The notes: generated by a model from the sequence alone, not told the origin. A stretch of DNA of 10,427 nucleotides from Candidatus Zixiibacteriota bacterium (GCA_030628225.1 DAOVRJ010000068.1:1-10427), one strand, 5' to 3'; numbered from the stretch's first letter, positions 1 through 7,040 are shown. A program made the numbers and translations.

Positions 1-728
1 TCTTCTATTGGAGCCTCTTCGGATTGTTCCTCCGGAGCCGCGGTGGTTTCGGCCTCTGCGGAAGCTGCTTCAGACAATTCTGTTGCCGTTTCGACTGGCG
101 CCTCGACCTCTGCGGGTGTTTCCTCGGGTTTCTCCTTTGATGGCTCAGAAGCCTCGGTTTCCTCGGGCTTTTCCTCGGGTATTACCGGCGGCGCCCCGGC
201 GTCTTCGGTCTGCGGAGGTGTCTGCTCAAGTTTCTCTGCCGCCGGCTCAGCTGCTTCGGCCTCGACAGTTGCCTCCACGGCTTCTTTCGCCTCCGGGGTA
301 GTCACTGCTTCTTCGGGCTTTTCCGCTTCAGGGACGGGCATCGCTTCTTTAGCTGTTGCTTCTGCCGGCGCAGACACCCTGACTGCCCGTGCAGAGGGTT
401 GAGTCTCGGCCGCAGTCTTCTTGGCCCGGGCGGCAATCTCTTCCGCTGTGTGAATGGAGACCACGGTCAGATATCGCAGGTAGAGTTCGCTCAGCTTATA
501 GTGATGTTCCAGCTTGGCGGGTAGATCCGCCTCACCTTTGAAGTACACGCAGGTATAAAAACCCTGCCCTTTCCGTTTGATCTCGTAGGCCAGTTTCTTC
601 ATGCCCCAGCGGTCGACGCTGACCACCTCGCCCTTGTTGGCAGTGATCAGATCTGTTACCTTCTGGATCTCAGCGTCGATGGCATCCGACGGGGCGTCCA
701 GAATGAAAACGGTTTCATAAAAGGTCAT
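1..728 (-). CDS. rpsF: 30S ribosomal protein bS6 with a very long acidic C-terminal extension (partial, runs off the left edge)
   Basis: bS6 binds 16S rRNA in the 30S platform together with bS18. I translated the minus strand from ATG at 728. Residues 1-95 are a normal S6 core: it opens MTFYETVFILD, has DRWGMKKLAYEIK at 39-51, GFYTCVYF at 56-63 and LRYLTVVS at 84-91. A good Shine-Dalgarno (GGGAGG) lies 9 nt before the ATG. The family is usually about 95-140 residues, but here the frame stays open to base 1, giving at least 242 residues. After a short basic linker (about 99-118) the rest is Glu/Ala/Pro/Thr-rich and low in complexity, with KPEE at 137, 187 and 200. No stop is seen, so the true C-terminus and any fusion partner lie outside the window. 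E. coli S6 gains C-terminal glutamates through RimK; here acidic residues are encoded in the gene. The core identity is very secure, the purpose of the tail unknown. Confidence 0.95.
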   Translation of the reverse strand, partial: MTFYETVFILDAPSDAIDAEIQKVTDLITANKGEVVSVDRWGMKKLAYEIKRKGQGFYTCVYFKGEADLPAKLEHHYKLSELYLRYLTVVSIHTAEEIAARAKKTAAETQPSARAVRVSAPAEATAKEAMPVPEAEKPEEAVTTPEAKEAVEATVEAEAAEPAAEKLEQTPPQTEDAGAPPVIPEEKPEETEASEPSKEKPEETPAEVEAPVETATELSEAASAEAETTAAPEEQSEEAPIE

Positions 729-856
729 GGTTGGTAACCTCCCTTTGGACGTCAGAAGAACGGCCCCAGCCCTCAGCTGGAACAGGGACAGTCCTGGTGG
801 ACGCCATCCTGCGCCCACCTTCTTTTGAGAATTAGGATGAACGCTTTGTGCTGCAC
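729..856 (-). promoter_or_regulatory. rpsF 5' leader with strong stem-loops, candidate S6:S18 autoregulatory region
   Basis: This 128-nt gap between ychF and rpsF is longer than most gaps here and is structured. On the coding strand, GGTGGGCGC (819-811) pairs with GCGTCCACC (804-796): a 9-bp stem with one G.U pair and a 6-nt loop. A second hairpin, CCAGC/GCTGG with a 5-nt loop, lies at 780-766 and is followed by GGCCG. Many bacteria regulate rpsF through an S6:S18-binding leader with a conserved CCG; the CCG just 3' of the second stem could be that element. This is inference, and the full fold was not computed. The rpsF Shine-Dalgarno lies at the 3' end of the region. I see no convincing promoter. 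Confidence 0.35.
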
Positions 857-1951
857 TCATCCGGCGTGAAATTTAATGGTCAGTACATCACCGTCCTGGA
901 CAACGTAGTCCTTACCCTCTATGGCCAGCAAGCCGTGTTCGCGAACCGTGTGCTCTGAGCCGTACCTCTCCAGATCCTCAAATTTCATCATCTCCGCCCT
1001 GATGAAACCCCTTTCCATGTCGGAGTGGACCTGGCCGGCGGCGGCCGGTGCCTTCTGGCCACGCTTCAGAGTCCAAGCCCGGACCTCATTTTCTCCGGCG
1101 ATGGTGTAAAAGGTGATCAGATCCAGCAGCCGGTAGCCCACCTTGATGACCTTCTCCAGACTCGACTCGGTGACTTCGTAGCTCTTCAGGAACTCCCTGG
1201 CCTCGTCGGGGGAGAGGTCGGTCAACTCGCTTTCCAGCTTCGAGGAAACGTTGACCGTCTCCCTCTGGACAGAAGCGGCATGCTCGGCCACCGTCCGGGA
1301 ATAGTTATTTCCCTCGGCGATAGCCTGCTCATCGATGTTGGACACGTAAAATTGAGGTTTTATGGTCAATAGCTGGAGGTCGCCCAGGTGTTCCAGGTCC
1401 GTCTTGCTCAGAGACATGCTTTCCGCCGGCCTGCCGCCCTCCAGGGTTTGCTGAATTCTCTCCAGCAGATCTATTTCCTTTTTGGTCTCGGCCTGACCTG
1501 TCTTCAACAGCTTTCGTGTCTTGGACAGACGGCGCTCCACCATCTCCAGATCGGCCAACATCAGCTCCGTCTCCACCACCTCGATGTCGCGCAGCGGATT
1601 GACGGTGCCGTCGGTGTGAGCGACGTTCCTGTCCTCGAAACAGCGAACCACGTGCACGATGGCATCCACATTGCGGATGTGGCCCAGGAACTGATTGCCC
1701 AGCCCCTCCCCGTGGCTGGCTCCCTTGACCAGGCCAGCGATGTCCACGAACTCGATGTGCGTCGGGGTCAGCTTGGGCGGCTGGAGAATCTGGCCCAGTC
1801 TCTGCAGCCGCTCATCGGGAACAATGGCCACCCCCACGTTCTGATCGATGGTCGTGAAGGGGTAATTGCTGGCCGGGGCGTGGCCCTTGGTCAGGGCATT
1901 GAACAGAGTGGATTTGCCCACGTTGGGCAGGCCGATGATCCCCAGCTTCAT
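857..1951 (-). CDS. ychF: Redox-regulated ATPase YchF (OLA1/Obg-family P-loop NTPase)
   Basis: YchF is a cytosolic, ribosome-associated P-loop NTPase of the Obg/OLA1 family that prefers ATP over GTP. The 364-residue product matches the usual length of about 363. The Walker A motif GLPNVGKS is at residues 7-14, the switch/G3 motif DIAGL at 70-74, and the G4 position reads NIDE at 205-208. That sequence, instead of NKxD, is the family trait behind its ATP preference. The middle part (about 130-200) is the coiled-coil insertion, and residues about 280-362 form the TGS domain, ending [12 protein letters not shown]. The start is ATG at 1951, with AAGGAAG about 9 nt upstream; that site is inside a perfect hairpin described separately. 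It lies 69 nt after hppA, and rpsF follows after 128 nt. In E. coli and many others ychF directly follows pth; here hppA comes between them. Confidence 0.98.
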
Positions 1952-1969
1952 AAAGGACCGCTTCCTTTA
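1951..1969 (-). promoter_or_regulatory. Hairpin covering the ychF ribosome binding site
   Basis: On the coding strand TAAAGGA (1969-1963) is perfectly complementary to TCCTTTA (1957-1951), with a 5-nt loop AGCGG. The 5' arm holds the AAGGA core of the Shine-Dalgarno and the 3' arm ends on the A of the start codon, so folding would hide both. The complementarity is seen directly. A role in holding down ychF translation until the helix is opened is inference. The stem is AU-rich and short, so it would be only moderately stable. Confidence 0.5.
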
Positions 1970-2020
1970 GGTTGAAACTGCTGACCGACCTGGTCATCTG
2001 TCTGTCGGTTTCCCCACCTC

Positions 2021-4054
2021 TTAGCGCATGAACAGGGGGGCGAGAACCAGGGAGATGACCGACATAAGCTTGATCAGGATGTTGATAGATGGCCCCACGG
2101 TGTCCTTAAGAGGATCTCCCACGGTGTCTCCCACCACTGCCGCTTTGTGGGTGTCTGAGCCTTTGCCCCCCAGGTTCCCCTCCTCGATCCATTTTTTGGC
2201 GTTATCCATAGCCCCGCCACTGTTGGCTGTCTGGATGCCCAGCATCACCCCGCTCACGATGGCCCCCACTAAAACGCCACTGAGTACCACGGGTCCCATG
2301 GTGAATCCAACGGCCACGGGGACCAGTACAGCCAGCAGACCAGGCAACATCATCCCCCGCAAGGCTCCTTTGGTGCTGATGTCCACGCATGTGGCCGAGT
2401 CGGGCATGGCGGTGCCCTCCATGAGGCCGGGGATTTCCCGGAACTGCCGGCGTACCTCCTCGATGAGCTGGAAGGCAGATTTGGCCACCGCCTTGAACAG
2501 CATGGAGGAGAACAGATAGGGCAGCATGCCCCCGATGAGCAGACCGGCCACCACCTTCGGCTCGGTCAGAGACAGCTTGGCTGCTTCCACGTGGGAGATC
2601 TTCATGTATGCCGAGAGCAGTCCGATGGCGGCGAGCGCCGCCGACCCAATGGCGAACCCCTTGCCGATTGCCGCTGTGGTGTTTCCCACAGAGTCCAGGT
2701 GGTCGGTGATCTTGCGGACCTCCGGGGGCAGACCGGCCATCTCAGCGATGCCGCCGGCGTTATCGGCGATGGGACCGTAAGAGTCCACGGCCACCACCAT
2801 GCCCGTGGTGGCCAACATGCCCACCGCCGCCATAGCCACCCCGTACATGCCGGCCATCTGGTGAGCTACCAGCACGGCTGCAGCCAACATCAGGACAGGC
2901 AGGGCGGTGCTGCGCATGCCCACGGCCATTCCGTTGGTGACGGAGATAGCTGGTCCTGACTGGGCGCTATGGGCCAGAGCGCGCACAGGACCGTATTTCG
3001 AGGAGGTGAAATACTCGCTGGTCAGGCCCACGATGATTCCGGAGATCAGTCCGGACAGGATGGCCCAGAAAGGGCCCAACTTGCTGTAGCTGGCGAACTC
3101 GATGCCCAGGCTGTTGACGATCAAATAGGAGGCCAGGGCGGTCAAGCCCGCGCTGATATAGGTTCCCCCCAGAAGAGCCGACTGGGGATTGAATCGACCA
3201 AGGATGCGGATAAAGGCTACGCCCAGGATGGAGGCGATGACGCCGGCGCTGGCCACGTAAATGGGCAGGAAAATGAGCTTGCTGGAGATGAGCGCGGCGT
3301 TTGGGGTAACCAGGGTGGCAAAGGTGGCCGCGATGGCCATGGAGGCGATGATGGACTCCACGTAGGACTCCAGGAGATCCGATCCCAATCCGGCCACGTC
3401 GCCCACGTTGTCGCCCACATTGTCGGCGATCACCGCTGGATTGCGCGGGTCATCTTCGGGGATGCCGGCCTCCACCTTGCCCACCAGATCCGCGCCCATA
3501 TCCGCCCCTTTGGTGAAGATCCCACCCCCCGATCGGGCGAACAGAGCCATCAGACTGGCCCCCATGGCGTAGCCGTTGATTACCATCGCGTTATCGGGAG
3601 TGATGCCCGATCGGGCGAAGGCAAAGATGACGGCCACCAGCCCCAAAAGAGCCAGGCCCACCACGCTGAGGCCCATCACCGCACCGCCGGAGATAGCCAC
3701 GCCCAATGCTTTGTTCAGACCGGTCTGAGCAGCATGGGTGGTGCGTGCGTTGGACTGGGTGGCAATGCGCATGCCCAGGTATCCGGCCAGGGCGGAGACC
3801 AGGGCACCAAAGGCGAAGCTGACGCCTGTGTGCCACCCTAAGCTTGTGAAGGAGATGGGCACGGCGATGACCAGCACCACCAGAAAAACGGTCTTGTACT
3901 CCCTAAACAAAAAGGCCTTGGCTCCCTCCTGAATGGCCATGGAGATGCTCTTCATCCTGTCGCTGCCCGGGCTCTTTTTTTTGATCCAGATCACCAGGTA
4001 GAGGACAAAAATCATGGCCACAACCCCGGCCACCAGAGGCATCCAGAGCCCCAT
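2021..4054 (-). CDS. hppA: K+-dependent, ion-translocating membrane pyrophosphatase
   Basis: This integral membrane enzyme couples hydrolysis of pyrophosphate to pumping of Na+ and/or H+ across the cytoplasmic membrane. I place the start at ATG 4054 (677 residues): AAGGAG lies 9 nt before it but only 3 nt before the GTG at 4060. About 16 hydrophobic segments are visible. Catalytic motifs, numbered from ATG 4054: DNVGDNVGDVAG at 211-222, and GDTVGDPLKDT at 642-652. The potassium-site segment GNTTAAIGKG (457-466) has Ala 461 and Gly 464, where K+-independent enzymes have Lys and Thr, so this is the K+-dependent class. The ion gate has Asp 226, Glu 229 and Lys 662 (NILIKLM), which fits a Na+ pump, but a second Glu at 233 occupies the spot used by plant H+ pumps. 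Which ion is moved cannot be decided here. The gene lies between pth and ychF. Confidence 0.97.
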   Translation of the reverse strand: MGLWMPLVAGVVAMIFVLYLVIWIKKKSPGSDRMKSISMAIQEGAKAFLFREYKTVFLVVLVIAVPISFTSLGWHTGVSFAFGALVSALAGYLGMRIATQSNARTTHAAQTGLNKALGVAISGGAVMGLSVVGLALLGLVAVIFAFARSGITPDNAMVINGYAMGASLMALFARSGGGIFTKGADMGADLVGKVEAGIPEDDPRNPAVIADNVGDNVGDVAGLGSDLLESYVESIIASMAIAATFATLVTPNAALISSKLIFLPIYVASAGVIASILGVAFIRILGRFNPQSALLGGTYISAGLTALASYLIVNSLGIEFASYSKLGPFWAILSGLISGIIVGLTSEYFTSSKYGPVRALAHSAQSGPAISVTNGMAVGMRSTALPVLMLAAAVLVAHQMAGMYGVAMAAVGMLATTGMVVAVDSYGPIADNAGGIAEMAGLPPEVRKITDHLDSVGNTTAAIGKGFAIGSAALAAIGLLSAYMKISHVEAAKLSLTEPKVVAGLLIGGMLPYLFSSMLFKAVAKSAFQLIEEVRRQFREIPGLMEGTAMPDSATCVDISTKGALRGMMLPGLLAVLVPVAVGFTMGPVVLSGVLVGAIVSGVMLGIQTANSGGAMDNAKKWIEEGNLGGKGSDTHKAAVVGDTVGDPLKDTVGPSINILIKLMSVISLVLAPLFMR

Positions 4055-4120
4055 GGTCACTCGCTCCTTTTCAAGAGGGTTACCCCCTTAATGAGGGTTG
4101 GTTTCCGCCAACGCGGTGTG

Positions 4121-4681
4121 TCAGGCATTGTATCTATTCATGGCATCCTCGATGCCATCCTGCAGAAAACAACTGGCCGCCTCGGCCGCCAGTTGGACCA
4201 TCCGGGTTACCAGTATCTCCTCCTCCGGCTCAAAATTGGCCAGAACGAAGGTGACCATGTCCTGATTCTCGGGCAACGGCCCGATTCCCATCCTCAGACG
4301 GGGAAAATTCTCCGAGGCCAGGTGGTAGATGATCGATTCCAGTCCCCGGTGTCCGCCATCAGATCCGCTGCGACGGAGGCGAATCTTTCCCAGGGGCAGA
4401 TTCGTATCATCACAAATGACGAGCAGCCTGTCGAGATCAACCTGATAACCTTCTATCAGGTTGATGGCTGCCCGTCCGCTTTCGTTCATATAGGTGAGGG
4501 GTTTGACCAGGGCGATCTGCGCATCTTCCAGAAGGCCCAGCCCGATGAGATAACGATCCTCATGGATCTCAAAGGAGGTTCCCAGGCGGTCGCCCAGAAG
4601 GTCCACCACTCGAAACCCCAGATTATGCCGGGTGCGAGCGTATTTCTCTCCCGGATTGCCCAGACCCAATGCCAGCTGCAA
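4121..4681 (-). CDS. pth: Peptidyl-tRNA hydrolase (Pth family)
   Basis: Pth cleaves the ester bond of peptidyl-tRNAs that drop off ribosomes, freeing tRNA for reuse. The 186-residue length is normal. GLGNPG (6-11) carries the conserved Asn 9, and TRHNLGF (17-23) carries the catalytic His 19. YMNESG (64-69) carries Asn 66, and CDDTNLPLG (90-98) carries the Asp 91 that orients the histidine. The GGHNGL motif of E. coli reads GGHRGL (109-114), so Arg 112 replaces the Asn equivalent to E. coli N114. The only start that keeps the N-terminus intact is TTG at 4681, one base after the rplY stop. Its Shine-Dalgarno (GAGGAGG, 12 nt upstream) lies within the last codons of rplY, so translation is probably coupled. 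The next gene, hppA, begins 66 nt downstream of the stop. Confidence 0.96.
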   Translation of the reverse strand: MQLALGLGNPGEKYARTRHNLGFRVVDLLGDRLGTSFEIHEDRYLIGLGLLEDAQIALVKPLTYMNESGRAAINLIEGYQVDLDRLLVICDDTNLPLGKIRLRRSGSDGGHRGLESIIYHLASENFPRLRMGIGPLPENQDMVTFVLANFEPEEEILVTRMVQLAAEAASCFLQDGIEDAMNRYNA

Positions 4682-4682
4682 C

Positions 4683-5372
4683 TTACTTCTGTTCCTCCTC
4701 TTTCTTCCCTTCCTCTCCCTCTTCCTCCTTGCGTTCCTTCTCGATCAGCTCTGGTTCCTCCAGTCCCTCCTCCTCGACGAGCTCCTCCTCCTCTACGACA
4801 GGAGCCTTGATCACGGTGGGAGGAACGACGGTGGCTATAGAGCGTTGTACCTCGGTGAGGATGTTCAGCTTCTCCAGGGAAAGGTCCCGTATGTGAATGG
4901 AGTCGCCCACGTCCAGCTCGGTCACGTCCACCTCGATGTGCTCCGGGATTTCCCCGGGCAGACATTCGATCTCCAGCTCGTGAAGAATGTGCTGAAGTAC
5001 GCCGCCTTTTGTGCTGACCCCCACGGGAGACCCGACCAGGACTATGGGCACTGAGACGTGCAGCTTCTTCTTCATGGAGATGTGCAAAAAATCCAGGTGA
5101 AGGATATCGCCCCGCACCGGGTGGTGCTGGACCTCGCGGATAATGGCCTTGAAAGGGTTCTTTTGCCCTGGTATTTTAACGTCGAAGATGATGTTTTCCG
5201 CAGCATGGGTATGCAATATGTTGTGAAACATCTTGGCGTCTATGGTCAGGGAGATGGATTTCTCTCCGTGGCCGTAAAAGATGGCCGGGATTTTCCCCTC
5301 AGCTCGTAGCCTCTTGGCCGGCCCCTTTCCTTGCGACTCGCGTTTTTCAACTTCCAGTGTGACTTGTGCCAT
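4683..5372 (-). CDS. rplY: 50S ribosomal protein bL25, Ctc-type long form with acidic tail
   Basis: bL25 binds 5S rRNA in the large subunit's central protuberance; the long form is also called Ctc or TL5. The product has 229 residues. Residues 1-95 are the 5S-binding domain (MAQVTLEVEKRESQGKGPAKRLR, then GKIPAIFYG at 27-34 and HPVRGDILHLDF at 84-95). Residues about 100-188 are the beta-rich C-terminal domain found in long forms (LPGEIPEHIEVDVTELDVGDSIHI). From about residue 192 the protein is nearly all Glu and Lys, encoded by a purine-rich tract. The ATG at 5372 has AGGAGG 8 nt upstream. It lies 33 nt after prs and 1 nt before pth, an order (prs-rplY-pth) common to many bacteria. Confidence 0.97.
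   Translation of the reverse strand: MAQVTLEVEKRESQGKGPAKRLRAEGKIPAIFYGHGEKSISLTIDAKMFHNILHTHAAENIIFDVKIPGQKNPFKAIIREVQHHPVRGDILHLDFLHISMKKKLHVSVPIVLVGSPVGVSTKGGVLQHILHELEIECLPGEIPEHIEVDVTELDVGDSIHIRDLSLEKLNILTEVQRSIATVVPPTVIKAPVVEEEELVEEEGLEEPELIEKERKEEEGEEGKKEEEQK
4692..4730 (-). repeat. 39-nt homopurine tract in the rplY 3' end
   Basis: The plus strand is unbroken pyrimidine over 39 bases, so the rplY mRNA is pure purine here. It encodes the Glu/Lys/Gly tail of bL25 and, at its 3' end, contains the GAGGAGG used by pth. The tail sequence is thus constrained both as protein and as a ribosome binding site. Composition is read directly; the constraint is inference. Confidence 0.75.
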
Positions 5373-5405
5373 CCTGAGATCCTCCTGCGTGTAAAGGCCA
5401 AACCC

Positions 5406-6341
5406 TCAATCAAAGAGTGAGGTCACCGACTCCTCTTGATGAATACGACGGATGGCCTCTCCGAAGAGCTCTGCCACCGAGACCACCTCAAAGTCGCCGT
5501 TTTTGGCCTCCGTCCGGAGAGGGATGGTGTCGGTGACGATGACCTTGGTGATGGGCGAGTTGGCAACATTTTCGATGGCCGGGCCGGAGAGCACAGGATG
5601 GGTGCAGTAGGCGAAAATCTCCTTGCTTCCCCTCTCACTGAGAGCCTGCGCCCCTTTCGTCAGGGTGCTCGCGGTGTTGATCATGTCATCTTGGATGATG
5701 ATGTTCTTCCCGTCCACCTTCCCGATCACGTTCATCACCTCGATCTTGTCCGCTTCCGGGCGGCGTTTGTCGATGAAGGCCAGTGAAGTTTTCAGCTTCT
5801 GGGCGAAGTGCCGGGTAATGGGGATACTGCCCGGGTCGGGAGCGACCAGAACCAGATTGGAAAGCTTTCGCCGCTGCACATGTCTGATAAACACAGGGGC
5901 GGCGAGCAGATGGTCCAGGGGAATATCAAAAAAGCCCTGGATCTGAGAGGCGTGCAGGTCCATGGTCAACACCCGGTTGGCTCCGGAGATCGAGAGAAGG
6001 TTGGCCACCAGCTTGGCGGTGATGGGCACCCGCGGCTGATCCTTTCTATCCTGACGGGCGTAGCCGAAGTACGGGATTACGGCGGTGACCCTCCGGGCTG
6101 AGGCCCGTTTGGCCGCGTCCAGCATGATCAGAAGCTCCAGAAGATGCTCGGCCGGAGCGTGAGTGGACTGGATGATGAAGATGTCCGCGCCCCGTACGTT
6201 CTCCCCGATCTTGACGGAGACCTCCCCATCGCTGAACCTGCCCACAGTGGCCCGAGAAAGGGGTATCTTGAGATAAGCGCTGATTTTCTCCGCCAGCGGT
6301 CGGTTGGAGTTACCACAGAATAGCTTCAGATCATCCTTCAT
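5406..6341 (-). CDS. prs: Ribose-phosphate pyrophosphokinase (PRPP synthetase, class I)
   Basis: Prs transfers the pyrophosphoryl group of ATP to ribose 5-phosphate, making PRPP for purine, pyrimidine, NAD, His and Trp synthesis. The 311 residues match the usual 310-320. Visible motifs: GRFSDGEVSVKI at 34-45, YFGYARQDRK at 91-100, TMDLHASQIQGFFDIPLDHL at 126-145, the flexible-loop DKRRP at 191-195, CTHPVLSGPA later, and a family-typical end (SVTSLFD). Two differences stand out. The ribose-phosphate loop, DDMIDTAGT in the family, reads DDMINTAST (218-226). The segment after SPDxGG reads APDPGSIPITRHF. The start ATG at 6341 has GGAG 7 nt upstream. The 152 nt between tRNA-Gln and this gene hold two hairpins and a duplicated Shine-Dalgarno-like octamer. 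rplY follows after 33 nt. Confidence 0.97.
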   Translation of the reverse strand: MKDDLKLFCGNSNRPLAEKISAYLKIPLSRATVGRFSDGEVSVKIGENVRGADIFIIQSTHAPAEHLLELLIMLDAAKRASARRVTAVIPYFGYARQDRKDQPRVPITAKLVANLLSISGANRVLTMDLHASQIQGFFDIPLDHLLAAPVFIRHVQRRKLSNLVLVAPDPGSIPITRHFAQKLKTSLAFIDKRRPEADKIEVMNVIGKVDGKNIIIQDDMINTASTLTKGAQALSERGSKEIFAYCTHPVLSGPAIENVANSPITKVIVTDTIPLRTEAKNGDFEVVSVAELFGEAIRRIHQEESVTSLFD

Positions 6342-6347
6342 GAGGCA

Positions 6348-6365
6348 TCTCCAATTGTCTCCAAT
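6348..6365 (-). repeat. Duplicated ATTGGAGA octamer in front of prs
   Basis: The octamer ATTGGAGA occurs twice on the coding strand (6365-6358 and 6355-6348), repeating every 10 nt. The copy nearer the gene is the prs ribosome binding site at correct spacing; the farther copy is too distant from the ATG to serve directly. It may be a standby site or a chance duplication. Confidence 0.4.
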
Positions 6366-6370
6366 AAACG

Positions 6371-6425
6371 TCCACCCAGCTGATCACTGGGTGGAGTTGT
6401 CTCACACCCCTCCTCTGACGAGGGG
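6371..6425 (-). promoter_or_regulatory. Two tandem hairpins between tRNA-Gln and prs
   Basis: Hairpin 1 pairs CCCCTC with GAGGGG (arms 6407-6412 and 6420-6425; 6 bp, 7-nt loop). Hairpin 2 pairs TCCACCCAG with CTGGGTGGA (arms 6371-6379 and 6387-6395; 9 bp, 7-nt loop). Only a weak U-rich stretch (CGTTTATT) follows the second one, so it is not a clear intrinsic terminator. Likely roles are protecting the prs mRNA 5' end after tRNA excision, or partial attenuation. The pairing is seen; the role is inferred. Confidence 0.45.
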
Positions 6426-6493
6426 GATCGACTGTTGGAATTACGACTGAGTATCTAAAACGGAATATGTCTCGTTAGGCTCCCATCCCGATG

Positions 6494-6567
6494 TGGCTGG
6501 GGCGGGAGGATTCGAACCTCCGATGCAGGATCCAAAGTCCTGAGTCTTACCACTTGACGACGCCCCA
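6494..6567 (-). tRNA. tRNA-Gln (anticodon TTG), CCA encoded
   Basis: A complete 74-nt cloverleaf is present. The acceptor TGGGGCG pairs perfectly with CGCCCCA, followed by discriminator G and an encoded CCA. The D-arm is GTC...GAC around AAGTGGTAA. The anticodon stem CAGGA/TCCTG encloses CTTTGGA, giving anticodon TTG, which reads CAA and, by wobble, CAG. The T-arm is GGAGG-TTCGAAT-CCTCC. The first base lies only 5 nt after the spoVG stop codon, with no room for a promoter, so it is probably cut from a longer spoVG-prs transcript by RNase P and 3' processing. Confidence 0.97.
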
Positions 6568-6572
6568 ATGTC

Positions 6573-7040
6573 TCATGAATCTTCTTTTTTCTCTTCCTCT
6601 TCCTCTTCCTCTTTCTCTTCCTCTTTCTCTTCCTCTTTCTCTTTCTCTTCCTCGGTCTCTTTCTCTTCCTCGGTCTCTTCCTCTAGGGCTTCCTCGGTGG
6701 TCTTCTCAGGGGTCTCTTCCTTGCTTTCCTCCACGACTTCCTCTGTCTCCGGCGCAGGTTCGGCCGTGTCCTGGAAGGAAGCGTCGGCCTGGCGCTCATT
6801 CTCGTAGGCGCCGAGCACGGCGTCCTCGATGATTCGTCTCATCTCGTTGTTGATGGGATGGGCGATATCCTGGTAGGTGCCGTCCGGCCTTTTCCTGCTG
6901 GGCATGGAAACGAAGTATCCGTTGGTGCCGTTGATGACCTTTAATCCACGCACTACAAAAGCATCATCAAAGGTCACATTGGCGAAGGCCTTCAGTTTTT
7001 CTTCGTCTCTCAGCGTGATTCTAACCTCGGTGATTTCCAC
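6573..7040 (-). CDS. spoVG: SpoVG family nucleic-acid-binding regulator with long Glu/Lys tail
   Basis: SpoVG proteins are small DNA/RNA-binding regulators, first known from Bacillus sporulation but widespread in bacteria that do not sporulate. The start is GTG at 7040: AGGAGG lies 7 nt upstream, and translation from there gives the family-typical MEITEVRITL. The longer frame from 7121 is not supported. Residues 1-80 are the conserved domain (AFANVTFDDAFVVRGLKVI at 19-37, GYFVSMPSRK at 41-50, DIAHPINNEMR at 58-68). Typical SpoVG proteins are about 85-100 residues; this one has 155. Residues about 85-155 are a low-complexity tail that becomes almost pure Glu and Lys and ends KKEDS. It is encoded by a purine tract described separately. 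It lies 99 nt after ispE, and tRNA-Gln follows after 5 nt. Confidence 0.95.
   Translation of the reverse strand: MEITEVRITLRDEEKLKAFANVTFDDAFVVRGLKVINGTNGYFVSMPSRKRPDGTYQDIAHPINNEMRRIIEDAVLGAYENERQADASFQDTAEPAPETEEVVEESKEETPEKTTEEALEEETEEEKETEEEKEKEEEKEEEKEEEEEEEKKEDS
6580..6653 (-). repeat. 74-nt homopurine/homopyrimidine tract in the spoVG 3' end
   Basis: The plus strand is unbroken pyrimidine for 74 bases, made of imperfect CTCTTC/CTTTCT units; the coding strand is therefore all purine and encodes the Glu/Lys end of SpoVG. The units mostly keep a 3-base period, so copy changes of whole codons would preserve the frame. Tracts of this kind can slip in replication or form triplex DNA. The composition is observed, the consequences inferred. 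Confidence 0.85.

Follow-up and report, generated by a model that had tools for sequence, protein, structure and literature searches.

Charged C-terminal tails on SpoVG and a small set of ribosomal proteins in a family of Zixibacteria

The composition of the ribosome is often taken as fixed, yet lineages single out a few of its proteins and append disordered tails to them. In one gene run of a Zixibacteria draft genome, the ribosomal proteins bS6 and bL25 and the non-ribosomal protein SpoVG all end in long acidic tails, and we asked whether these are errors of the assembly, harmless additions or parts on which selection acts. The window analysed, 10,427 nucleotides, covers contig 142 of this genome in full (2.34 Mb in 306 contigs, 92% complete), and its minus-strand genes stand in the order ispE, spoVG, tRNA-Gln, prs, rplY (bL25), pth, hppA, ychF and rpsF (bS6). 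The family is sampled by two genomes, both incomplete draft assemblies: the source genome and the closest relative compared, candidate division Zixibacteria bacterium SM23_81, which belongs to a different genus. The bL25 and SpoVG tails of this relative are the same as those encoded in LJUY01000008.1.

Three tails in one gene run

Up to the point where the tails begin, the three proteins are regular members of their families. bS6 matches Ribosomal_S6 (PF01250) with 81.5 bits against a cut-off of 27 and TIGR00166 with 62.7 against 42.9; its Pfam domain is over by about residue 90 and the remainder is tail (27% D/E and 37% A+P). From an ATG at window position 728 on the minus strand the reading frame runs to position 3, where the contig start truncates it, so the bS6 tail lacks its end. 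In SM23_81 the gene that follows bS6 is that of bS18; a search of the source draft assembly found no bS18, and this absence beside the cut gene is probably an assembly gap. bL25 is of the long (CTC/TL5) type (PF01386 and PF14693 both 96.6 bits, TIGR00731 154 bits), with L25 and TL5_C domains complete up to residue 185 and a tail at residues 189-229. SpoVG was identified by its domain (PF04026, 109.5 bits) and, in an alignment, by its invariant residues; the domain extends to residue 80 and the tail covers residues 81-155 (Table 1).

These coordinates and residues bear out the sequence-only reading, which had described acidic tails after complete domains on these three proteins and none on their neighbours: in our domain search of the window, YchF, HppA, Pth, Prs and IspE are each complete over their domains and tailless. 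That reading had also asked whether the tails might be assembly or frameshift errors, and they are not, since SM23_81 carries all three (133 residues in bS6, 44 in bL25 and 54 in SpoVG). Its proposal that they are disordered stood in part. The bL25 tail is predicted by AlphaFold2 with low confidence and SpoVG is predicted to be disordered from about residue 94 to 124, but the last 31 or so SpoVG residues (125-155, pLDDT 76-87) may instead form a charged helix. E/K-rich stretches are frequently predicted as helices, which makes this helix a weak prediction.

Table 1. Positions of genes, tails and short elements discussed in the text; plain positions are counted in the window.
Feature	Position	Strand	Description
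bS6 (rpsF)	3..728	-	PF01250 5e-23, TIGR00166; open at contig start, 242 aa read
bS6 tail	3..452	-	at least 150 aa, rich in A/P/E/T; probably incomplete; net -0.19 per residue
bL25 (CTC/TL5 type)	4683..5372	-	PF01386, PF14693, TIGR00731; 229 aa
bL25 tail	4686..4808	-	41 aa, 49% D/E; AlphaFold2 pLDDT 50-56 (low confidence)
EPELI	4743..4757	-	local form of EPE[VLI][IV], a short motif of bL25 tails in several phyla
bL25 last codons	4683..4703	-	AAAGAGGAGGAACAGAAGTAA, including GAGGAGG; strong Shine-Dalgarno match before pth TTG start
tRNA-Gln(ttg)	6494-6567	-	start 5 nt after SpoVG stop; arrangement shared with SM23_81
SpoVG	6573..7040	-	PF04026 9e-32, NF009749 above cut-off; 155 aa, GTG start
SpoVG tail	6576..6800	-	75 aa, 53% D/E, net -0.40 per residue
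GAGGAA/GAGAAA tandem repeat	6580..6684	-	12/18-bp units; accounts for the extra length at the end of the SpoVG tail; absent from SM23_81 tail
uL3	L145:176-1180 (source genome)		334 residues, 129-residue tail of mixed charge; both genera
bL17	L145:15399-15965 (source genome)		188 residues, 70-residue basic tail; both genera
bS16	L146:3042-3755 (source genome)		long charged tail
bL31	L158:4304-4663 (source genome)		119 residues, charged tail

Distribution of tails over ribosome and proteome

The sequence-only reading had proposed a lineage trend towards acidic tails, and we compared about 30 ribosomal proteins of the family with those of two sister-family genomes. Only uL3, bS16, bS6, bL17 and, modestly, uS3 are extended; about 25 others agree with their sister-family counterparts over the full length or to within some 15 residues, and uS2, checked in particular, has no extension. 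The bS6 open frames of the sister family hold 119-123 residues, whereas the protein has 225 residues in SM23_81 and at least 242 in the source genome. bS16 has 237 and 296 residues in the two genera, with tails of 145 and 204 residues of mixed charge. For bL31 the open frames hold 122 and 136 residues in the family but 68 and 93 in the two sister-family genomes, and of the two family tails that of SM23_81 is the shorter (about 30 aa). Among the 36-59 diverse genomes with a match, the family ranks first to fourth in the open-frame length of bS6, uL3, bS16 and SpoVG and in mid-range for bL25, all these lengths being approximate in that they run from stop to stop and may take in in-frame upstream sequence. 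Over 60 genomes, tail length in one ribosomal protein correlates only weakly with that in another, and the uS2 control shows a correlation too. The trend survives as a habit of this family that reaches uL3, bS16, bL17, bL31 and uS3 and that the sister family lacks or shows to a much lesser degree. Its acidic character does not, as bL17 is basic and bS16 and uL3 are mixed; most ribosomal proteins are unextended, and bL25 stands outside the trend.

Tails of this kind are concentrated on few genes. Among 350 genes sampled from SM23_81, five end in low-hydrophobicity tails of at least 50 residues, and these are bS16, bS6, uL3, bL17 and SpoVG. A Fisher test of enrichment gives p of about 5e-6, an indicative value given approximate counts and partly chosen contigs. 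From the source genome we sampled 489 kb of contigs, the ribosomal ones partly picked deliberately, with 323 genes that have a stop; genes were called with a home-made caller, and ribosomal proteins that it missed were read directly from the sequence. The 99th percentile of the D/E fraction over the last 30 residues of these genes is 0.30, with SpoVG at 0.70 and bL25 at 0.53. The sequence-only reading had held that it would be refuted if like tails were common on unrelated proteins, and in a six-frame check of the 489 kb no stop-terminated frame other than those of SpoVG and bL25 reaches 0.40 D/E over its last 30 residues. As a separate observation, a BatC-like TPR protein (L101:260-1060) ends in 121 residues rich in Glu and Gln, the sample's one long low-hydrophobicity tail outside ribosomal proteins and SpoVG.

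Adaptation to salt or acid, in which the tails would be part of a proteome-wide acidification, is highly improbable: SM23_81 presumably comes from estuary sediment, but the median pI is 6.7-6.8 and only about half of all proteins fall below 7, the tails include basic and neutral ones, and the distribution of C-terminal D/E together with the median pI indicates no broad acidic or salt-adaptation trend. With a median of 6.7, the proteome is not of the salt-in acidic type, and the earlier suggestions of salt adaptation or charge balance find no support.

Extensions of this general kind are known from other ribosomes. In Cutibacterium acnes and Mycobacterium smegmatis, ribosomal proteins at the surface (bS16, uS5, uL4, uL22 and bL25) bear long C-terminal extensions, which are partly invisible in cryo-EM and so flexible, and the contacts of their bS16 tails reach uS4 (PMC10085706, PMC6133939). 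The Zixibacteria tails extend this kind of ribosome variation: besides bS16 the set consists of uL3, bL17, bS6 and bL31, the charge is stronger, the non-ribosomal SpoVG is included, and the tails are predicted from gene sequences.

Conservation and possible roles of the tails

To judge whether the tails are maintained, we compared them between the two genera. The protein cores are 74-99% identical (74-81% for bS6, uL3 and bS16). The tails of bS6, uL3, bL17, bS16 and SpoVG are 35-67% identical, mostly with many gaps, those of bS6, uL3 and bS16 falling at 35-53%; the bL25 tail is at 76%. The charge per residue in the source genome and SM23_81, respectively, is -0.19 and -0.17 for bS6, -0.32 and -0.34 for bL25, -0.40 and -0.31 for SpoVG, +0.29 and +0.27 for bL17, +0.08 and +0.04 for bS16, and -0.14 and -0.05 for uL3. 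When unconstrained change was simulated at the observed third-position divergence, hydrophobic content rose to 0.25-0.31 against an observed 0.05-0.17, the net charge of acidic and basic tails drifted towards zero, and in most cases stops were introduced. The simulation is a simple model, with a single divergence value per protein from a forced alignment, and is supportive rather than a formal test. As charge and hydrophobicity stay close within each protein and far from the simulated values, the composition of the tails has been kept, which indicates, on this sequence comparison, that composition is under selection while sequence turns over.

We hold it to be somewhat probable that this family carries a small set of RNA-binding proteins with selected, disordered, charged tails on exposed C-termini that tune RNA contacts. 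The tails would project from SpoVG or from ribosomal C-termini that are exposed to solvent in published ribosomes of other species, and would act electrostatically. Acidic tails, those of SpoVG and of bS6, which sits close to the mRNA exit on the platform of the 30S subunit, could weaken or compete with RNA contacts, while the mixed or basic tails of bS16 and bL17 may extend to adjacent rRNA or proteins; raw length would be provided by expansion of purine-rich GAG/GAA/AAA repeats, most clearly in SpoVG. That flexible tails at exposed C-termini electrostatically tune RNA or protein contacts would be the most economical reading of our analysis. The charge, kept despite sequence drift, and a habit that reaches SpoVG make the role of charge testable by swaps. 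RNA is bound by SpoVG in Listeria (PMC4959528).

A rival account would be neutral growth, in which slippage in purine-rich codons lengthens C-termini wherever this is harmless and the tails have no function. The SpoVG tail fits it, being a tandem 12/18-bp array that makes it 21 residues longer than that of SM23_81, and these repeats mark it as a recently lengthened tail. The purine content of the SpoVG and bL25 tails (0.77-0.80, against 0.52 for coding sequence) and the strong divergence of the bS6, uL3 and bS16 tails relative to their cores fit it as well. Slippage is, however, expected in any gene, whereas the long tails of low hydrophobicity cluster on ribosomal proteins and SpoVG; bL17 and uL3 have tails that do not consist of simple repeats; and tail charge and low hydrophobicity stay far from the unconstrained expectation. 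Neutral growth of the whole set is therefore somewhat unlikely in our view. The differing histories of the three tails (bS6 diverges freely, bL25 keeps a motif, and SpoVG shows recent tandem expansion) also agree with the earlier suggestion that they did not arise from one duplication.

The same SpoVG domain ends in just 8-28 tail residues in other Zixibacteria. WOR-3/Stahlbacteria SpoVG proteins (L049:3081-3596, L052:3123-3659 and L055:3208-3735) share the domain as well and have acidic, imperfectly repeated tails of 91-98 aa, and bS6 is tailless in these bacteria; their repeat units differ from those of the source genome, and their origin looks separate.

A bolder proposal, which we regard as unlikely, is that about 600 residues on bS6, bS16, uL3, bL17, bL31, bL25 and uS3 form a selected corona of charged tails of fixed sign, shared with SpoVG, that controls how ribosomes meet mRNA or one another, and that, separately, the bL25 motif EPE[VLI][IV] is a docking site for a ribosome-binding partner in many phyla.

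For bS6 in particular, its acidic tail could be a fixed, gene-encoded version of the poly-glutamate added by RimK, the likeness being an acidic extension at the bS6 C-terminus. In Pseudomonas fluorescens RimK extends bS6 with terminal Glu residues, and when 4 or 10 Glu are encoded at that site the translation of 159 or 45 genes is altered (PMC7343187). Neither family genome (each about 92% complete) has a RimK match above the curated cut-off of 143 for the TIGR00768 profile, the best scores being 35 bits in the source genome and 37 in SM23_81. The sister family, however, likewise lacks RimK above this cut-off and yet has no long bS6 tail, which leaves the encoded substitute as a possibility only, and the Zixibacteria extension is an Ala/Pro/Thr/Glu mixture of more than 150 residues, not poly-Glu. 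We consider this substitution quite improbable. In Flavobacterium the 3' end of 16S rRNA can be held by the C-terminal part of bS6 together with bS18 (work cited in PMC10085706; PMC9976891). Occlusion of the anti-Shine-Dalgarno of this Bacteroidia/Flavobacterium type is ruled out for our family by its normal Shine-Dalgarno use: consensus 5-mers occur in 38% and 30% of upstream regions and in 4-7% of control windows.

The bL25 tail and its motif

Most of the bL25 proteins that we sampled, from many phyla, have a charged or low-complexity tail, and by this comparison the bL25 tail is ordinary across bacteria and lies outside the family-level trend. Nothing essential sets the source-genome tail apart from other acidic tails that follow TL5_C in bL25/CTC/TL5 proteins; it is richer in Glu and Lys and carries EPELI, and EPE[VLI][IV] occurs in about a third of those sampled. 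With the last position widened to EPE[VLI][IVT], the motif is present in at least 23 of 72 bL25 sequences, several of them incomplete, while shuffled tails give 0.24 on average, although related lineages inherit it by descent and the 23 are not independent events. It usually lies 12-19 residues past the domain and ranges over Zixibacteria, Acidobacteria, WOR-3/Stahlbacteria and one Clostridia MAG (for example L063, L053, L032 and L067). The top PDB bL25 sequences carry EPEVV, and those of Thermus, whose form we take to be EPEVI, align across the stretch.

We think of the bL25 tail as a separate, older element whose motif probably docks on some partner. The low AlphaFold2 confidence of the tail suggests that the motif has no evident partner inside the protein, and the literature searched assigns no function to the acidic tail of bL25 or to its motif. 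The motif, short and conserved within a tail that is disordered elsewhere and shared by several phyla, is a concrete lead.

The very end of the tail may be kept for another reason. The TTG start of pth lies one base past the bL25 stop, the last bL25 codons are identical in SM23_81 at 20 of 21 nucleotides, and the Shine-Dalgarno match for pth falls within them, so part of the Glu-rich end may be kept as a ribosome binding site.
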